Shown here: one piece after another, positions 7,575-48,010 of the stretch
How positions within the stretch are numbered: the first letter of the stretch is position 1
How the letters are laid out: each line of letters begins with the position of its first letter
Assembly: GCF_024137025.1 (NCBI RefSeq)
Contig: NZ_JAMYJR010000029.1
Location: forward strand, 1-64,000
DNA length: 64,000 nucleotides
Reading direction: 5' to 3'
From: Paractinoplanes aksuensis
GTDB taxonomy: Bacteria > Actinomycetota > Actinomycetes > Mycobacteriales > Micromonosporaceae
Made by a program: the position numbers and the translations under genes
The notes under the pieces: generated by a model
What the model was told of the DNA's origin: nothing
Databases searched by the model: none
The model's input: only the letters and a program-made list of their open reading frames with translations

Positions 7575-8527
7575 CAGCCCTCCACGAGGCGCCACCGGCT
7601 CTTCGGCCGCCGGACGAGAAGCCGGTCAAGAAGAGCCGGTTCAAGCGCGACCGCTCGCTGCTGCTCATGGTGATCCCGGCCGTGCTGCTGCTGATCGTCT
7701 TCAACTACGTGCCCATGTTCGGCACAGCGACGGCGTTCCAGCGCTACAGCATCTACGCCGGGTTCTGGCACAGCCCGTGGGTCGGCTTCGAGACGTTCCG
7801 GCAGCTGTTCTCGGATCCGCTGTTCTGGAGCGCGCTCGGCAACACGCTCATGCTCAGCCTGGTCCAGCTGGTCTTCTACTTCCCGATCCCGATCGCGCTG
7901 GCCCTGCTGCTGCACTCGATCATGAGCACCAAGATTCGTACGATCGTGCAGTCGGTGGTCTACCTGCCGCACTTCTTCTCGTGGGTGCTGGCCGTGACCA
8001 TCTTCCAGCAGATGCTGGGCGGGGCCGGGGCGCTCAACCAGTTCCTGCGGCAGAACGGGCTGGGCACGTTCGACGCGATGACCAACCCCGACACGTTCGC
8101 GCTCCTGGTCACCTCGCAGGTGATCTGGAAGGAAGCGGGCTGGGGCATCATCGTCTTCCTGGCCGCGCTGGCCGCGATCGACACCCAGTTGTACGAGGCC
8201 GCGGCGGCCGACGGCGCCGGGCGCTGGCGGCGGCTGTGGCACATCACGCTGCCCGGCATCCGCGGGGTCATCGTGCTCATGCTCGTGCTGCGCCTGGGCA
8301 ACGTGCTCACCGTCGGGTTCGAGCAGATGCTCATCCAGCGCGGTGCGGTCGGGCGTGATGCGGCCGAAGTGCTCGACACGTACGCCTACTTCTACGGCGT
8401 CGTGAACGCGAACTTCAGCCTCGGCGCAGCCGCCTCGCTGTTCAAGGGCGTGCTGTCGCTGCTCTTCCTGTTGGCCGCCAACAAAATCGCGCACCTGCTG
8501 GGCGAGGACGGACTGTATCGGCGATGA
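7571..8527 (+). CDS. Oligosaccharide ABC transporter permease, LplB type
   Basis: A 318-aa inner-membrane permease with a long cytoplasmic N-terminus and six hydrophobic segments, the first at about 34-56 (LLLMVIPAVLLLIVFNYVPM). The EAA loop that docks the ATPase is present as YEAAAADGAGRWRRLWHITLP. It starts at a GTG overlapping the binding-protein stop codon (GTGA) and ends overlapping the second permease, so the three genes are translationally coupled. Confidence 0.93.
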   Translation: MTALHEAPPALRPPDEKPVKKSRFKRDRSLLLMVIPAVLLLIVFNYVPMFGTATAFQRYSIYAGFWHSPWVGFETFRQLFSDPLFWSALGNTLMLSLVQLVFYFPIPIALALLLHSIMSTKIRTIVQSVVYLPHFFSWVLAVTIFQQMLGGAGALNQFLRQNGLGTFDAMTNPDTFALLVTSQVIWKEAGWGIIVFLAALAAIDTQLYEAAAADGAGRWRRLWHITLPGIRGVIVLMLVLRLGNVLTVGFEQMLIQRGAVGRDAAEVLDTYAYFYGVVNANFSLGAAASLFKGVLSLLFLLAANKIAHLLGEDGLYRR

Positions 8528-9465
8528 CTGTCGTGACCCCGCCGGCGGACCCGAACCGCCGCAACCCCAACCGGCCCAACTGGGAAGAGCCGCCGACCGT
8601 GGCCGGGCAGACCGGCAAGGGCGTGGTGCTCTTCCTGGTCGTGGCCGTGGTCGCCATCCCGCTGTGGATGGTGCTGCTGACCAGCCTGTCCACCCAGAGC
8701 GCGGTCAACGAGGCCGGCGGCATGGTGCTCGTGCCCGACGGCATCACGTTCGCGGCGTACGAACAGATCTTCACCAATCAGCTGGTGATGCACTCGCTCG
8801 TGGTCAGCCTGGGCATCACGATCGTCGGCACGCTCATCTCGATGGTGGTGACGATCCTGTGCGCGTACGGGTTGTCCCGGCACGGCTCGTTCGCCCACCG
8901 CCCGATCCTGTTGCTGCTGGTGGCGACCATGTTCTTCAGCGGCGGCATCATCCCGACGTTCCTGGTCGTCTCGGCCCTGGGCGGGTACGACAGCTACTGG
9001 TCGATGATCCTTCCGACCGCGGTGAGCGTGTTCAACATCCTGGTCGTGCGCGCGTTCTTCTCGAACACCGCGCAGGACCTGATCGACGCGGCCGCCATCG
9101 ACGGCGCGGGGGAGTGGCGGACGCTGTGGTCCGTGGTGCTGCCGACGTCACGAGCGGTCACGGCGGTGGTGGCGCTGTTCTACGCGGTCGGCTACTGGAA
9201 CACGTTCTTCAACGCGCTGCTGTTCCTGCCCGACAACCAGAAGTGGCCGCTGCAGATGGTCATCTACACGTACACGTTGCAGGGCAACGCGATGCCCGGC
9301 TCGGGTCAGAACACGACAGGCCAATATTTCGGTACGCAGGAGATCACGCCCCTGGCCATCCAGATGGCCGTGGTCACGCTGACCCTGATCCCGATCCTGT
9401 TGGTGTACCCGTTCGTGCAACGCCACTTCACCAAGGGCGTCCTGCTCGGGGCGATCAAGGGATGA
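8524..9465 (+). CDS. Oligosaccharide ABC transporter permease, LplC type
   Basis: A 313-aa permease of the LplC/YtcP class, partner of the preceding LplB. Six membrane segments are visible, the first at about 35-60. The EAA loop reads DAAAIDGAGEWRTLWSVVLP. The C-terminus VLLGAIKG is the standard ending of this class. Its TGA stop overlaps an ATG (ATGATC) that opens the first of two mini-ORFs in the repeated junction before the GH42 gene. Confidence 0.93.
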   Translation: MTVVTPPADPNRRNPNRPNWEEPPTVAGQTGKGVVLFLVVAVVAIPLWMVLLTSLSTQSAVNEAGGMVLVPDGITFAAYEQIFTNQLVMHSLVVSLGITIVGTLISMVVTILCAYGLSRHGSFAHRPILLLLVATMFFSGGIIPTFLVVSALGGYDSYWSMILPTAVSVFNILVVRAFFSNTAQDLIDAAAIDGAGEWRTLWSVVLPTSRAVTAVVALFYAVGYWNTFFNALLFLPDNQKWPLQMVIYTYTLQGNAMPGSGQNTTGQYFGTQEITPLAIQMAVVTLTLIPILLVYPFVQRHFTKGVLLGAIKG

Positions 9466-9527
9466 TCTCGTCAGCACGCCACACCTCCTGTTCCCCGCGG
9501 TCAGCCCTCATCAAGGAACAACGATGA
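9462..9527 (+). CDS. Mini-ORF 1 in duplicated junction
   Basis: A 21-codon reading frame (begins MISSARHT) whose ATG overlaps the permease stop codon as ATGA and whose TGA overlaps the next ATG as ATGA. Its value may lie in translational coupling rather than in the peptide. It could also be a silent by-product of the repeat. Confidence 0.25.
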   Translation: MISSARHTSCSPRSALIKEQR

Positions 9528-9577
9528 TCTGGTCAGCACGCCAATCCCCCTGTTCCGCGCGGCCGAACTGCTCATGA
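9524..9577 (+). CDS. Mini-ORF 2 in duplicated junction
   Basis: A 17-codon frame (begins MIWSARQS) preceded by AAGGAACAACG. It shares its first three residues, MIW, with the GH42 enzyme and stops ten bases before that start. It probably arose from a copy of the GH42 translation start. Whether it is translated is unknown. Confidence 0.25.
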   Translation: MIWSARQSPCSARPNCS

Positions 9578-9587
9578 AGGAACAGCG

Positions 9588-11318
9588 ATGATCTGGTTCG
9601 GCGGTGATTGGAATCCGGAGCAGTGGCCGTCGTCGGTGTGGCTCTCTGACGTGGAGCTCATGCGCCGGGCGCACGTCAACCTGGTGACGGTCGGCGTGTT
9701 CTCTTGGTCGCGGCTGCAGCCGACCCCGGAGAAGTTCGAGTTCGGTTGGCTCGACGAGGTGCTCGATCTGCTGCGGGACAACGGGATCGGGGCCTGCCTG
9801 GCCACGCCGACCGCGTCACCGCCGCCGTGGTTCACCGACGGGCTGCCGGTGACGGCGGACGGTGTCGCGTTGACGTACGGCTCGCGGGACACCTACTGCG
9901 TCAACGCTCCGGCTTATCTGGAAGCCAGTTCGCGTATCGCTTCGGCGCTGGCTTCGCGCTACGCGGACCATCCGGCGGTGCGGATGTGGCATGTTCACAA
10001 CGAGTACGGCACGACGTGTTACTGCGAGCATTGCGCGGTCGCCTTCCGGGGGTGGCTCTTCCGCGCGTACGGGGATCCGGAGGCGCTCAATGCGGCCTGG
10101 GGCACCGATTTCTGGTCACAGCGGTACGCGTCGTTCGCCGAGGTGCGGCCGCCCCGCAAGACCCAGTATCTGAGCAATCCCGCCCACGTGCTGGACTACC
10201 GCCGCTTCGTGTCGGACGCGATGCTCGACCACTACGTGCGGCAGCGCGAGATTGTCCGACCGTCGGGCAAGCCGGTGACAACGAACTTCGCCCTGGGCGG
10301 CTGGGTGCCGGTCGACCACGCCCGCTGGTCCCGCGAGGTCGACGTCGTGGCGGTCGACGACTACCCAACCTCGGTCGCCGGCCACCTCGACGACCGCGCC
10401 TTCGTCGCCGACCTGGCCCGCGGCTGGGCCAATTCCGCCGGCCCGCCCAATTCCGCCGGCCCGCGAGCTTCTGCTGATGCGTACGCCGGAGCTGGGCCTG
10501 ATGGCATGGCCGGGGTGGCTGGGGGCAGGCCGTGGATGGTTATGGAGCATGCGCCGGGTGCTGTGCTGGAGCAGGGTGTCGTGCGGGCGCTGGCCGAGGG
10601 CGAGGCGATGGCGGCCGCCCAGGCCTATGTCGAGCGCGGAGCCGTCGGCGTCATGTACTTCCAGTGGCGGGCCAGCCGGAGTGGCGCCGAACAGTGGCAC
10701 CCGGCGGTCGTGCCGCACGAGGGCCCGGACACCCCGGTCTTCCACGAGATCGCGGCCGTCGGCGCCGCAATCGTGGGCCGGATGCCGGAGAGCCCCGCCG
10801 ATACCCGTGCACTGTTGTATGACGAACAGACGATGTGGGCTTGGCAGTCCCCGCACCTGCCCACGAACCAGATCGACTACGAGGCGACCTGCCGCCGCTG
10901 GCACCGCGCGCTCGGCTCGCCGGTCGACGTCCTTCCGGTCGACGCCCCGCTCGACGGCTACCGGATGGTGGCCGCGCCGCTGCTCCACCTCATGTCGGCG
11001 GCCACCCACGCCGCCCTGCGCTCCTACGTCCGAGCCGGCGGCACACTCGTCCTCACCTTCGCGTCCGCCCTGACCGACGAACATTGCCGGGTCACGCCGC
11101 AGGCCCTCGACGACCTGCTCGGCGTCCGGATCGTCCGCCGTCGCCCCGGGGACGGTCACGTCTGGCTCGACGAGGTCGAGCCCACCACCGCCAAGGTGCA
11201 GCTGCGCGACCCCGAAGACCGGCCGCTCGTGACCGAACACTCCTATGGCGAGGGCCTCGTCCGCTTCCTCGCCACCGACCTGCCCGACCTCGACCCCTGG
11301 CTCACCCCGGCCCGCTGA
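9588..11318 (+). CDS. Beta-galactosidase, GH42 family
   Basis: A 576-aa cytoplasmic enzyme that hydrolyses terminal beta-galactosides, probably products brought in by the upstream importer. The TIM barrel holds the acid/base Glu139 (HVHNEYG) and the nucleophile Glu320 (VMEHAPG). The zinc-site cysteines of GH42 are present (Cys104, Cys144, Cys146, Cys149). A trimerisation domain follows to about residue 540. The protein ends at FLATDLPDLDPWLTPAR and is about 90 residues shorter than usual, so the small C-terminal beta domain is missing or reduced. Residues 282-313 are a Gly/Ala/Ser-rich insert that includes a DNA-level duplication (NSAGPP/NSAGPR). The start has AAGGAA five bases upstream. Confidence 0.93.
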   Translation: MIWFGGDWNPEQWPSSVWLSDVELMRRAHVNLVTVGVFSWSRLQPTPEKFEFGWLDEVLDLLRDNGIGACLATPTASPPPWFTDGLPVTADGVALTYGSRDTYCVNAPAYLEASSRIASALASRYADHPAVRMWHVHNEYGTTCYCEHCAVAFRGWLFRAYGDPEALNAAWGTDFWSQRYASFAEVRPPRKTQYLSNPAHVLDYRRFVSDAMLDHYVRQREIVRPSGKPVTTNFALGGWVPVDHARWSREVDVVAVDDYPTSVAGHLDDRAFVADLARGWANSAGPPNSAGPRASADAYAGAGPDGMAGVAGGRPWMVMEHAPGAVLEQGVVRALAEGEAMAAAQAYVERGAVGVMYFQWRASRSGAEQWHPAVVPHEGPDTPVFHEIAAVGAAIVGRMPESPADTRALLYDEQTMWAWQSPHLPTNQIDYEATCRRWHRALGSPVDVLPVDAPLDGYRMVAAPLLHLMSAATHAALRSYVRAGGTLVLTFASALTDEHCRVTPQALDDLLGVRIVRRRPGDGHVWLDEVEPTTAKVQLRDPEDRPLVTEHSYGEGLVRFLATDLPDLDPWLTPAR

Positions 11319-11612
11319 CTTCGACTCGCCGCCGGCCGTCCGAGCGCAGCTCATCCAGAACGGCGCCGTCGGCGGTCGGCCGAGCGTGGCTGGACCGGAC
11401 ACGACGCCGTTGGTGGGTGGCCGGGTGCGCGCTGGTCCATTGACAGCACGGGCTGGGGCCCGGTCGGGTGCGCTCGTGCAAGCCTCGCTCTGCGCATTCG
11501 TGGGAGCGGATGGTCCAAAACGGCAGCGTCGGCTCGTGCCGGGTCCCGCCACGCCGACCACGCAGATTGTCGGACAACCGGACAATCAGACGGTCAGATG
11601 GTCGGACCTCGT
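11319..11612. other. Intergenic stretch between convergent genes
   Basis: About 290 bp between the convergent GH42 and sigma-factor genes. I see no supported gene and no U-tailed hairpin. Short CGGACAA/GGTCGGAC repeats near 11570-11610 are the only visible structure. Confidence 0.5.
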
Positions 11613-12140
11613 TCAGGTGGTTTCGGTCAGGGTGAAGGCGTCGGTCAGGGTAACTGTGCGGCGCATCGTGGCGATGGCTCGGCTGGCCCGGCTCTTCACC
11701 GTGCCGGTCGAGCAGCCCAATTGCGCCGCGATCTCTTGTTCCGAGAGGCCGGCCCAATAGCGCAGCACGAGCACGACCCGCTGGCCGGGTGGCAGTTCGC
11801 GTAGGGCGGCCAGCACCACCTCGGCGGTGTCGTGACGGTCGTATGCGTTCCCGGCGGCGGCCCGGTCCGGTGGAGCGGCCGCCGGAAGCTCGCGCCGCCA
11901 CATCCGTCGGCCCGCCCGCCAGGCCGCGCGGGCCATCACCTGGCGGGTGTACGCCTCGGGGTCGCCGCCGGCCGGGAAGCCCAGCCGTTGCCAGCCGCGA
12001 TACGTCTTCACGAGGGCGTCCTGGGTCAGGTCCTCGCCGTGCCCGAGGTCGCCGGTGAGCAGCGTGCCGTAACGGACCAGCGCCGGATAGCGGGCGCTGA
12101 CGAACTCGGTGAACCCGGGCGGTGCCGTCCCTGCGTTCAC
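11613..12140 (-). CDS. RNA polymerase sigma factor, SigE family (ECF)
   Basis: A 175-aa extracytoplasmic-function sigma factor. Region 2 lies at about 12-75 (ARYPALVRYGTLLTGDLGHG then EDLTQDALVKTYRGW) and region 4 at about 108-160 (LRELPPGQRVVLVLRYWAGLSEQEIAAQ split across the helix, then GTVKSRASRA for -35 recognition). It belongs to the actinobacterial SigE-like subfamily often paired with a single-pass membrane protein rather than a zinc anti-sigma. The GTG start overlaps the stop codon of a 62-codon mini-ORF (GTGA) that fills the gap to the membrane-protein gene upstream. Confidence 0.93.
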   Translation of the reverse strand: MNAGTAPPGFTEFVSARYPALVRYGTLLTGDLGHGEDLTQDALVKTYRGWQRLGFPAGGDPEAYTRQVMARAAWRAGRRMWRRELPAAAPPDRAAAGNAYDRHDTAEVVLAALRELPPGQRVVLVLRYWAGLSEQEIAAQLGCSTGTVKSRASRAIATMRRTVTLTDAFTLTETT

Positions 12141-12325
12141 TTCTCGATCCCGATCAGCCTTTGGGGCCAGGTGAGTCCGGCGGGCGCGGTCGCGGCGTTC
12201 GGTTCTCGACCCCGAGCAGCGTTTCGAGCGCGTTGAGTCCGGCGGGCGCGGTTCCGGCGTTCAATCGCGGTCCCGATCCGCTCTTCGGGCCCGGTGAGCC
12301 CGGCGGGTACGGTCGCGGCGTTCAC
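12137..12325 (-). CDS. 62-aa mini-ORF bridging a duplicated operon junction
   Basis: An open frame that begins at a GTG overlapping the stop of the membrane-protein gene (GTGA) and ends at a TGA overlapping the GTG of the sigma gene. Its start (VNAATVPAGLT) copies the sigma N-terminus (MNAGTAPPGFT), and its end (RLIGIEK) copies the C-terminus of the upstream protein (TLFGIEK). It is therefore built from repeated copies of the junction. The middle is Arg-rich and in other frames of the repeat. It may serve only to carry ribosomes across the gap; a product is unproven. Confidence 0.4.
   Translation of the reverse strand: MNAATVPAGLTGPEERIGTAIERRNRARRTQRARNAARGREPNAATAPAGLTWPQRLIGIEK
12141..12325 (-). 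repeat. Three tandem copies of a gene junction (62 bp units)
   Basis: Three imperfect units, 12141-12202, 12203-12264 and 12265-12325, of 62, 62 and 61 bp. On the minus strand each joins a copy of the sigma gene's first about 30 bases (GTGAACGC...CCCGCCGGGCTCACC) to a copy of the last about 30 bases of the upstream gene (GAAACGCTGTTCGGGATCGA). The flanking half-copies are the real gene ends. The unit phase shows that the ancestral genes overlapped as GTGA. Confidence 0.85.
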
Positions 12326-13329
12326 TTCTCGATCCCGAACAGCGTTTCGAGCTCGGTCACCGCGTCGTTGCTGAAGTGGACGCGGCCGCCGAGGGACGAC
12401 ACTGCCTCCTGGCAGTGGGGGCCGAGGGCGACGACCACGTGGGCCGTTCCGATGTCGAGCCGCAGGCCTTTCTGAGCGGGGCCCGCGCAGGCCTTGTTGT
12501 CGGGCACGGCCTTTGTCTGGTCCCGCAACACCCGTACGACCTCGAAGATTTTGGCTGTTTCTGTGGTTTTGCCGTGCCGGACGGAGTCCTGGTCGGGGGC
12601 GATCAGCTCCGCGACGGCCGGGACGTCGGGCACGAGCAGGCGGCCGGCGTCGATCGGTTCGGTGCGGATGGTGGCGAGGATCCGCTGGGTGTCGGCGAGG
12701 CTCATCCGGAAGAAGACGGTGGTGCGGGACCAGGGCAGCACCAGGTGCAGGTCGTACGCGCCTCCGATGGTGTCGGCGGCGGAGATCCGGTTCGACAGCC
12801 AGGCCGGCTCGCCACCCGGCAGCGTCATCGAGATCGGCGGTGCCGCGACGAGACCGTCCTCGGCCACGAGACCGCGCGCGGGAGCCGACATCTCCTCGTC
12901 CCGGACCGACACGGTGATGGCGGCGAGACGGCAGGCCGGCGCCGTGTCCTCCGGGATACCGTCCAGGCGGTCGGCGATGAGGATGGTGCGCTTCGAGTCG
13001 GCGCACGACCGGTCGCGGGTCTCGGTGGCGGCCTGCCAACCGGGCGGCACCGGCAGGCGCAGGCCACCGGACACCAGCACTCCGTCAGCGAAGTGCGGCA
13101 CCGGCAGTGGCCGGTCGGGAACGGCGACCGGAACCGGCGGATCCTTCTGCAGCTGCGGCACGACCAGCCCACCGCCGGCCAGCACAGCCAGCACCGCGAA
13201 TCCGCCGGCCACGAGCGTCCGGCGCCGCTGGGCCCGTCGGCGCCGGGCGACGGCCGCCGCCGGGTCGAGCGTGCGCGGCTCCACCCGGGACACCGCCTCG
13301 TCCAGCAGATCTTTGATGCGCTCGGTCAT
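12322..13329 (-). CDS. Single-pass membrane protein, putative sigma-factor partner
   Basis: A 335-aa protein with a basic cytoplasmic N-terminus (residues 1-40, RRRRAQRRR just before the membrane), one membrane segment at about 41-60 and an extracytoplasmic C-terminal region of about 270 residues with several Cys. It matches no domain I know. In actinobacteria SigE-type sigma genes often sit with such proteins, so a role in anchoring or sensing for the sigma factor is reasonable. Here it lies upstream of the sigma gene, which is the less common order. The ATG at 13329 is preceded by GGGGTACGGG. Confidence 0.7.
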   Translation of the reverse strand: MTERIKDLLDEAVSRVEPRTLDPAAAVARRRRAQRRRTLVAGGFAVLAVLAGGGLVVPQLQKDPPVPVAVPDRPLPVPHFADGVLVSGGLRLPVPPGWQAATETRDRSCADSKRTILIADRLDGIPEDTAPACRLAAITVSVRDEEMSAPARGLVAEDGLVAAPPISMTLPGGEPAWLSNRISAADTIGGAYDLHLVLPWSRTTVFFRMSLADTQRILATIRTEPIDAGRLLVPDVPAVAELIAPDQDSVRHGKTTETAKIFEVVRVLRDQTKAVPDNKACAGPAQKGLRLDIGTAHVVVALGPHCQEAVSSLGGRVHFSNDAVTELETLFGIEK

Positions 13330-13431
13330 CCCGTACCCCAATTGGTCTTTCGCCTGTGAAGCCCCGACATCCTCCTCAAAGACATCGACCGTCCTTTCGG
13401 TTCCCCGTGTGTCCGGACGAAGCTGATACGT

Positions 13432-14379
13432 ATGCAGAAGCGGATCGCCGTCGTCGGGGCGGGCATCGTCGGGGCCGGCATCGCCTATGAGATCGCGCGG
13501 GCCGGCGGCGATGTCGTGCTGGTCGACCAGGGGGAGCCCGGGTCGGGCGTCACTGCCCGTTCGTTCGCCTGGATCGGTGAGCCCCGCGACGGTGATCCGG
13601 TCGACGCGAGCACGCCCCTGCGGCGGGGTGCGCTGACCGACTGGCACCGCTGGGAGGACGAGGTGCCCGGCGTTCGGGTGCAGTGGCGCGGCGCGTTGCT
13701 GTGCGGCGAGGACGGTGACGCCGACGCGTCGCAGCTCGAGCCTCACCTCCGGCAGCCGCCTCCGCGTTCCGTCTTCCTGGAGAGCCACGGCGCCGTGGAT
13801 CCCGTCGCCGTGACGCGAGCCCTGGTGAGCGGGGCCCAGAGTTACGGAGCACGATTGTCAACGCATACACCCGTCTCGCCGGCGGCGGTGCGGGCCGGCC
13901 TCGACGCGGACGTCGTGGTGATCGCCGCCGGAACGGGTGCTCCCGCGCTGCTGGGACTCGAGCTGCCCGTGACATCGTCGCCCGCCCTGCTCGTGCGCTT
14001 CGCGGCGCCCCCGGGTCTGGTGCGCACCATTTTCGTCACCCCGGACCTGGAGGTTCGTGAGGCGGCCGAGGGCGAGTTGCTGGTCGCTGCCGCCGGCGAC
14101 ACGCGAGATCCGGGGCCGGAGATGCTGCGGCGCCTCACCGCCACCTTCGACGCCCCCGGCGTGCGGCTGCTGGACGTGCGAGTCGGCGCGCGCCCCATGC
14201 CGGCCGACGGAATGCCGCTGATCGGTCCCGTCCCGGGCCTCGAGCGGGCCTACGTGGCCGTGATGCATTCCGGCATCACCCTGGCCCCGAAAGCGGCCCG
14301 GCTCATCGCCGGCGAGCTCGTCGACGACACCGAAGCCGACGAGCTGGCCGGGCTGCGTCTCAGCGCCGCACCTCGATGA
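13432..14379 (+). CDS. FAD-dependent amino-acid-type oxidoreductase (DAO family)
   Basis: A 315-aa flavoprotein of the DAO/glycine-oxidase fold. The dinucleotide-binding site is at the N-terminus, VVGAGIVGAGIAYEIARAGG, with acidic residue at the strand end (VLVDQGEPGSG). The C-terminal block ARPMPADGMPLIGPVPG and MHSGITLAPKAARLIAGEL is the family's second FAD-contacting region. At 315 residues it is shorter than most members (about 370), so the substrate domain is compact and the substrate cannot be named. The last 20 bases overlap the convergent oxidoreductase gene. Confidence 0.85.
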   Translation: MQKRIAVVGAGIVGAGIAYEIARAGGDVVLVDQGEPGSGVTARSFAWIGEPRDGDPVDASTPLRRGALTDWHRWEDEVPGVRVQWRGALLCGEDGDADASQLEPHLRQPPPRSVFLESHGAVDPVAVTRALVSGAQSYGARLSTHTPVSPAAVRAGLDADVVVIAAGTGAPALLGLELPVTSSPALLVRFAAPPGLVRTIFVTPDLEVREAAEGELLVAAAGDTRDPGPEMLRRLTATFDAPGVRLLDVRVGARPMPADGMPLIGPVPGLERAYVAVMHSGITLAPKAARLIAGELVDDTEADELAGLRLSAAPR

Positions 14380-47700: not shown

Positions 47701-48010
47701 GAGACGATACGTTTCGCCTCGACCGCTCGTGAGGCGAAACGTATCGTCTCGCGTCCGGTCGAGGTGGTGACTGCTTTGGTCGCTGCTCGCGACGGTTCGT
47801 GAGGCGAAACGTATCGTCTCGCGTCCGGTCGAGGTGGTGACTGCTTTGGTCGCTGCTCGCGACCGTTCGTGAGGCGAAACGTATCGTCTCGCGTCCGGTC
47901 GAGGTTGTGACTGCTCTGGCCTCCGCTCGCGACCGGTGGCGAGACGAAACGGTTCGTCTCGCCTCGGGTCTTGGTGGTGACCGCTCCGCCCTTCGCTCGA
48001 ACCGTTGTGG
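47701..48010. repeat. Array of five 20-bp near-palindromes with 70-bp period
   Basis: Near-palindromes of consensus GAGACGAWACGTWTCGTCTC lie at 47701, 47731, 47801, 47871 and 47941, that is at steps of 30, 70, 70 and 70 bp. From 47731 the whole 70-bp unit is repeated: units 1 and 2 are almost identical, while units 3 and 4 diverge. The first element is the exact reverse complement of the second. The array lies between the 3' ends of the cupin and MFS genes. The half-site resembles TetR-family operators, but each element could also form an RNA hairpin. Confidence 0.85.

Follow-up and report, generated by a model that had tools for sequence, protein, structure and literature searches.

Results

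A tandem array between two co-directional genes

The window, a stretch of 64,000 nt at the start of a contig (C23:1-64000) of the 10.0-Mb genome of Paractinoplanes aksuensis (G000), encodes on its minus strand gene A and, downstream of it, an ECF sigma factor of the SigE family (Table 1). The sigma factor matches the NCBIfam model TIGR02983 with 163 bits (cut-off 141.55), as well as the Pfam Sigma70_r2 and r4_2 domains; among the best 80 of 152 matches in an alignment search (78 distinct), the nearest named records come from Paractinoplanes and Actinoplanes species, with the highest identity, 89%, observed in Paractinoplanes pyxinae. Gene A has no match in Pfam and retrieves from NCBIfam only SCO2400_fam, far under the cut-off; as the query in a scan of genome contigs, it yielded no relative.

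The two genes are joined through a tandem array (12133-12357 in Tandem Repeats Finder, period 62, 3.6 copies, 75% matches), the unit of which is composed of the tail of gene A and the head of the sigma-factor gene, i.e., of the flanks of the array itself. The original prediction of three such units of 61-62 bp stands as far as the array and its period are concerned, but cutting the copies at the 10-mer that they share yields four, the fourth being gene A's own tail joined to the sigma gene's own head, and TTGA and CCGA now stand at the inner junctions. The pairwise likeness of the copies is 71-85%, and because they differ by 15-29%, an assembly error is unlikely to be the source of the array.

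As had been predicted, the array contains a 62-codon mini-ORF that overlaps both neighbours as GTGA, such that it starts on the preceding stop and stops on the next start in the manner of a coupled cistron. The likeness of its ends to the neighbouring genes is borne out as well: it begins like the sigma factor (VNAATVPAGLT and VNAGTAPPGFT, respectively) and ends like gene A (IGIEK and FGIEK). With a -4 overlap and a unit of 62 bp (2 mod 3), each copy amounts to a frame of 21 aa, coupled in turn to its successor. Given that one copy is 1 bp shorter and that the inner junctions have become TTGA and CCGA, the three additional copies have ceased to couple singly and instead form one 62-aa frame across the insert, with GTGA at both ends. 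A frame of this length in an operon position could conceivably encode a functional small protein acting on the sigma factor or on the gene A product. Among the readings considered here, we hold this one to be the least probable, because the peptide has no Pfam or NCBIfam family match, is absent from 11 relatives and has the sequence of the neighbours' ends read over shifted copies.

Table 1. Features of the gene A-sigma factor junction and of the second junction array (positions in the window)
Feature	Coordinates	Strand	Description
Second junction array	9461..9597	+	period 62; ABC permease gene (8524-9465) to GH42 gene (9588-11318)
Mini-ORF 1, second array	9462..9527	+	21 aa; ATGA at both ends
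Mini-ORF 2, second array	9524..9577	+	17 aa; stop 10 nt before GH42 start
ECF sigma factor, SigE family	11613..12140	-	175 aa; downstream of gene A
ACCGAGTTCG in sigma gene	12101..12110	-	proposed breakpoint homology
Tandem array, A-end/sigma-start junction x4	12111..12357	-	62/61/62/62 bp; three more copies than relatives
Array copies	12357-12296, 12295-12235, 12234-12173, 12172-12111	-	62, 61, 62 and 62 bp, respectively
Bridging mini-ORF	12137..12325	-	62 aa + stop; starts on stop of gene A, ends on sigma start
Last junction, GTGA	12137..12140	-	mini-ORF stop / sigma start
Inner junction, now CCGA	12199..12202	-	
Inner junction, now TTGA	12261..12264	-	outside mini-ORF frame
First junction, GTGA	12322..12325	-	gene A stop / mini-ORF start
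Gene A	12322..13329	-	335 aa; N-terminal hydrophobic stretch (one-helix protein); upstream partner
ACCGAGCTCG in gene A	12348..12357	-	proposed breakpoint homology

Origin of the array

In all 11 genomes of relatives with both genes, the two genes overlap directly by NTGA (ATGA or GTGA), with neither an insert nor a repeat; therefore, the three junction copies were gained in this genome. This single-copy state in relatives is a feature of local tandem duplication by slippage or short homology, and so is a repeat unit whose length equals the distance between the two occurrences of the shared 10-mer. Gene A contains ACCGAGCTCG, and the sigma gene contains ACCGAGTTCG; these near-identical 10-mers (one mismatch) are 62 bp apart once the insert is removed and could have provided the breakpoints. 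The array exceeds chance expectation: it is absent in 11/11 relatives and is one of the eight hits of a screen that gave none in random pairings (see below). Together with the recurrence of such arrays elsewhere, the array-free relatives support the prediction that tandem duplication at a GTGA junction inserted a cistron that, judging by its placement, may be coupled on both sides.

Comparison with known systems

Minisatellites, or VNTRs, are made by slippage or short-homology recombination, and the array resembles them in being a local series of head-to-tail units, each a few tens of bp long, of a sort that is numerous in this genome; it differs in that the inserts kept at overlapping junctions are biased to one reading phase. 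Another class of repeats relevant in this context is the mycobacterial interspersed repetitive units (MIRUs), reportedly described by Supply et al. in 1997. According to two papers, MIRUs are short tandem units between co-directional genes (77-bp units in senX3-regX3), in which a small ORF is coupled to the following gene at -4 nt, and are apparently mobile and present in many mycobacteria (PMC12548453, PMC4213456). The contention that junction-derived mini-ORFs belong to no described class is therefore wrong, inasmuch as MIRUs share the layout, namely a small ORF with an NTGA overlap to both neighbours, as exemplified here by the 62-aa ORF, which meets each neighbour as GTGA.

A MIRU would, however, be expected to have homologous units dispersed at many loci and to be a foreign insertion, whereas the unit described here consists of the tail of gene A and the head of the sigma gene. 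Within its own genome, at E <= 0.001, the array unit matches the query locus only (40 of 153 first-look candidates scored). Across the genus, with 11 candidates scored per genome, matches were detected in 14 of 67 genomes; the 14 non-self places are pieces of 26-66 bp, two of which are the orthologous junction. No second copy was found within the scored candidates, and a dispersed or mobile element was accordingly rejected. The array works like a MIRU, yet is not classed as one.

Termination-reinitiation coupling at -4/-1 overlaps (PMC6728339) involves the same ATGA/GTGA and TGATG overlaps that constitute the state of the relatives at the A-sigma and other junctions; the difference is the extra short cistron inserted here between the coupled genes. 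Likewise, iraD is preceded by a short upstream ORF that is coupled in translation to the gene (PMC5574718), but this ORF precedes a single gene, whereas the one analysed here bridges two genes and was born from their junction. A literature search for junction-derived coupled mini-ORFs, with most subscription journals outside its coverage, brought up nothing beyond MIRUs.

The parallel with MIRUs also bears on the notion that the array carries a promoter of the sigma gene, since the MIRU-bearing senX3-regX3 spacer is reported to drive regX3 on its own (PMC4213456). For the A-sigma array, we consider a promoter function very improbable: a sigma-70-type scan of positions 11600-13500 (ECF promoters lie outside its model) detected neither a promoter nor a terminator, and the array RNA does not fold unusually well (z +1.18; 184 of 200 shuffles fold at least equally well). 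On the same shuffle test, a special RNA structure was rejected.

Duplicated junctions in the window and in three genomes

A second junction array, at a distance of 2.6 kb from the first one, links an ABC permease gene to a GH42 (beta-galactosidase) gene. At this junction, the second gene starts at -4 in 13 of the 14 relatives with both genes (five more loci are without the second gene); the array retains only the first coupled frame, with the last stop falling 10 nt short. Elsewhere in the window, positions 47720-47985 are occupied by an intergenic array of 3.8 copies of a 70-bp unit (89% matches), with a GAGACGATACGTTTCGCCTC-like motif on both strands.

For a broader view, three genomes of the genus were surveyed over a total of 2.39 Mb (G000, 1.59 Mb; G034, 0.40 Mb; G023, 0.40 Mb) with a simple home-made gene caller, which delineated 1,257 co-directional pairs, including 245 at -4 and 642 with a gap of 21-400. 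A frame-blind screen, in which the stop of the first gene is aligned in register with the start of the second gene regardless of reading frame (score of at least 14), detected eight of these 642 pairs, all with a score of at least 24, compared with none in 3 x 642 (1,926) random pairings. These are the A-sigma array, C24:220459 (cobaltochelatase-cobO), C24:506923, C24:347814, C1:319156, C44:65177, G034 C41:234153 and G023 C1:5262746. With the score relaxed to 12, the screen yielded 10 pairs (0.67 expected); the two additional ones are in phase 2, and one of them bridges whereas the other does not. Thus, the scan of related genomes that had been put forward with the original prediction did turn up similar junction-derived repeats at other junctions.

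Measured from start to start, the insert length is 2 mod 3 in seven of the eight frame-blind matches (binomial p 0.0026; the event counts are small), to be compared with 228/196/218 gaps in phases 0/1/2 over all 642 pairs. In all seven phase-2 matches, a bridging ORF begins on the stop of the first gene and extends 1-7 nt into the second gene, and several of these ORFs resemble the downstream protein at the start and the upstream one at the end (as illustrated by MPQGNVLMPLESLGRAA next to MPQGK and MPLESLGRAA). The remaining match, C44:65177, falls in phase 0 and looks like an N-terminal extension, in frame and starting on the first stop. An earlier alignment screen gave a similar picture, with 10 pairs at a score of at least 18 and none in the null set (phases 2/0/1 = 8/2/0).

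Of ten rows from a repeat-finder survey, G034 C41:358898 (phase 1) and locus L153 on another contig (phase 0) were dropped, and three loci were set aside from the earlier alignment screen (named below); because rows were dropped before counting, the resulting hand-picked set of ten arrays involves judgement, and the frame-blind screen serves as a check free of row selection. The hand-picked set comprises the seven phase-2 frame-blind matches along with the array at window position 9461, C24:81350 (81316) and C24:336026 (336001), three arrays that the frame-blind screen misses. Eight of these ten arrays bridge, compared with 0 to 1.3 of 10 after 1-2 bases are removed or added at random places. 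Among the other 632 pairs, a bridging ORF is present in 18, compared with 8.5-13.0 in shifted controls; the excess is weak at most, so that a bridging ORF alone is not diagnostic.

These controls bear on the alternative that the array is a neutral minisatellite, i.e., one of many tandem repeats in the genome, some of which happen to span junctions, with the sigma factor translated from its own start and the open frames being mere by-products of the rarity of stops in GC-rich DNA. Such an origin is possible, albeit unlikely in our assessment. Tandem repeats are indeed common, with 149 arrays of period 25-250 in a 1.19-Mb portion of this genome, and when neutral decay of three perfect copies was simulated (30-35% substitution plus small indels, 4,000 runs), a single bridging ORF was left in 10-11% of the runs and any relay chain in 24-25%, or about a quarter; at these rates, the A-sigma array by itself argues only weakly for selection. 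It is the prevalence of phase 2 in the frame-blind matches and the loss of the bridge in shifted controls that speak against neutrality.

At several of the other junctions, relatives have closely apposed genes as well. For C24:506923, the frames fit a -4 overlap in 11/11 relatives, with a start at -4 visible in eight; for C24:347814, the start is at -4 in 3/3; for C1:319156, the genes are at -1 in 5/11, a start at -4 is present in three more, and three differ. In five of the C24:506923 relatives (L266, L269, L270, L273 and L274), the homology-placed downstream start lies 83-1067 nt past the upstream stop in the -4 frame, a pattern that looks as if in-frame N-terminal insertions grew behind the overlap.

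The occurrence of similar inserts between unrelated genes also argues against a tuning device, whereby the number of units or the mini-ORF would set the ratio of the sigma factor to the gene A product via the number of arriving ribosomes. An inserted reinitiation step should alter downstream yield, and the mini-ORF appears to be positioned for coupling on both sides. Nevertheless, such a role is distinctly unlikely, considering that the array is present in this genome only, among the 12 in which the A-sigma junction was read, and that its diverged copies are unlike a frequently changing array.

Several other loci came to light in the survey. Three from the earlier alignment screen, at C24:571756, C1 (reverse 142895) and C1 (reverse 68829), were viewed and not taken as stop/start junction arrays. 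The last of these, in the 400 kb taken from C1 of G000, is a spacer with a 47-bp tandem array, beside which lies a stretch that may resemble a cobalamin riboswitch. Furthermore, G000 C24 at about 576195 (minus strand) and G034 C41:52560 (plus strand) contain similar bridging ORFs (LTHTAGILPETADPAREG... and LTHTAVLLPETADPGREP..., respectively) with no detected array; these ORFs sit between apparently orthologous gene pairs in the two species and may represent an older relay ORF that both have retained.

The cobaltochelatase-cobO junction across the genus

The gene upstream of cobO has as its best NCBIfam match a putative cobaltochelatase, below the cut-off for the 667-aa piece given. This junction was read in 42 of the 67 genomes of the genus, namely 12 best loci and 30 chosen genomes, a sample that for this reason leans toward closer, shorter-gap genomes. 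The gap is -1 (TGATG) in 28 genomes, 1, 5 and 5 in three, and expanded (31-202 bp) in 11. A single bridging ORF of 11-61 aa, whose start overlaps the first stop at -4 or -1 and whose end overlaps cobO at -1, is present in 8/11 expanded genomes, a further point against neutrality, and 10/11 expanded gaps have a length of 1 mod 3, the phase that permits bridging for -1. The bridging peptides vary between lineages; the frame is kept. On a two-protein tree, the expanded state requires seven changes and the bridged state six (gains or losses), and a second, quickly built tree agrees; 2/4 out-of-genus rows of this second tree fall within the genus, which makes its deep branching uncertain.

The three unbridged expanded genomes count against a relay. 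They form one clade (100/99), which two more unbridged genomes join (G074, gap 132, and G079, gap 488; SH-aLRT 99 in the quickly built tree). Among the 25 remaining genomes of the genus, 20 have cobO gaps of 93-728 in phases 6/6/8, i.e., with no preference, which likewise counts against a relay and favours the neutral reading for the longer spacers. These 20 gaps, including those of G074 and G079, were estimated from match coordinates (186 and 569 estimated for these two against 132 and 488 read, with the phase right in both); no usable estimate was obtained for G015, G072, G029, G090 and G035. Beyond the genus, where 59 of 101 genomes matched and 30 loci were cut, five of them from the genus, the 25 loci read represent 11 genera of the family and all have gaps of -1 to 6. 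A long cobaltochelatase-cobO spacer has opened up in one clade (read in G074, G079, G087, G014 and G065; estimated in others), in contrast to the remaining genomes of the genus that were read and to 25/25 other members of the family that were read.

Discussion

In this genus, overlapping gene junctions undergo occasional duplication. Among close genes, the duplications found here mostly keep the stop-to-start frame; in long-spacer lineages, phase no longer matters. We propose that the array probably arose as a tandem duplication of the stop/start overlap and was kept because ribosomes still passed from gene A to the sigma gene. Under this scenario, gene A and the sigma gene would have initially overlapped by GTGA, and slippage or recombination between ACCGAGCTCG and ACCGAGTTCG, 62 bp apart, would have added three junction copies, each with a short frame from one stop to the next start. 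Drift, together with the copy that is 1 bp shorter, would then have merged these into the one frame of 62 aa that extends from the stop of gene A to the start of the sigma gene. Ribosomes that finish gene A are predicted to reinitiate, translate a dispensable peptide across the insert and reinitiate again on the sigma gene, so that selection would target the relay and not the peptide: junctions would duplicate by chance, and those copies that still hand ribosomes on would be retained. A coupling filter, with the peptide as a passenger, is the simplest account, because the cobO bridging peptides vary by lineage and the array in the window comes without a family match, a sigma-70-type promoter or an unusual fold.

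More generally, we see roughly even chances that Actinoplanes-type genomes repeatedly gain new coupled cistrons through junction duplication followed by filtering for phase, with relay ORFs of 11-62 aa as raw material for small operon proteins. If so, the phase of an insert at a junction would be a natural readout of the dependence of the operon on coupling: where genes are coupled, most surviving inserts should be those in the relay-keeping phase, so that the need for translational coupling at a given operon junction could be tested from sequence alone. Such short frames are probably overlooked by standard gene calling. Junction-derived arrays would then represent a local, non-mobile counterpart to MIRUs and offer a simple route to the birth of a new, already positioned small ORF inside an operon.
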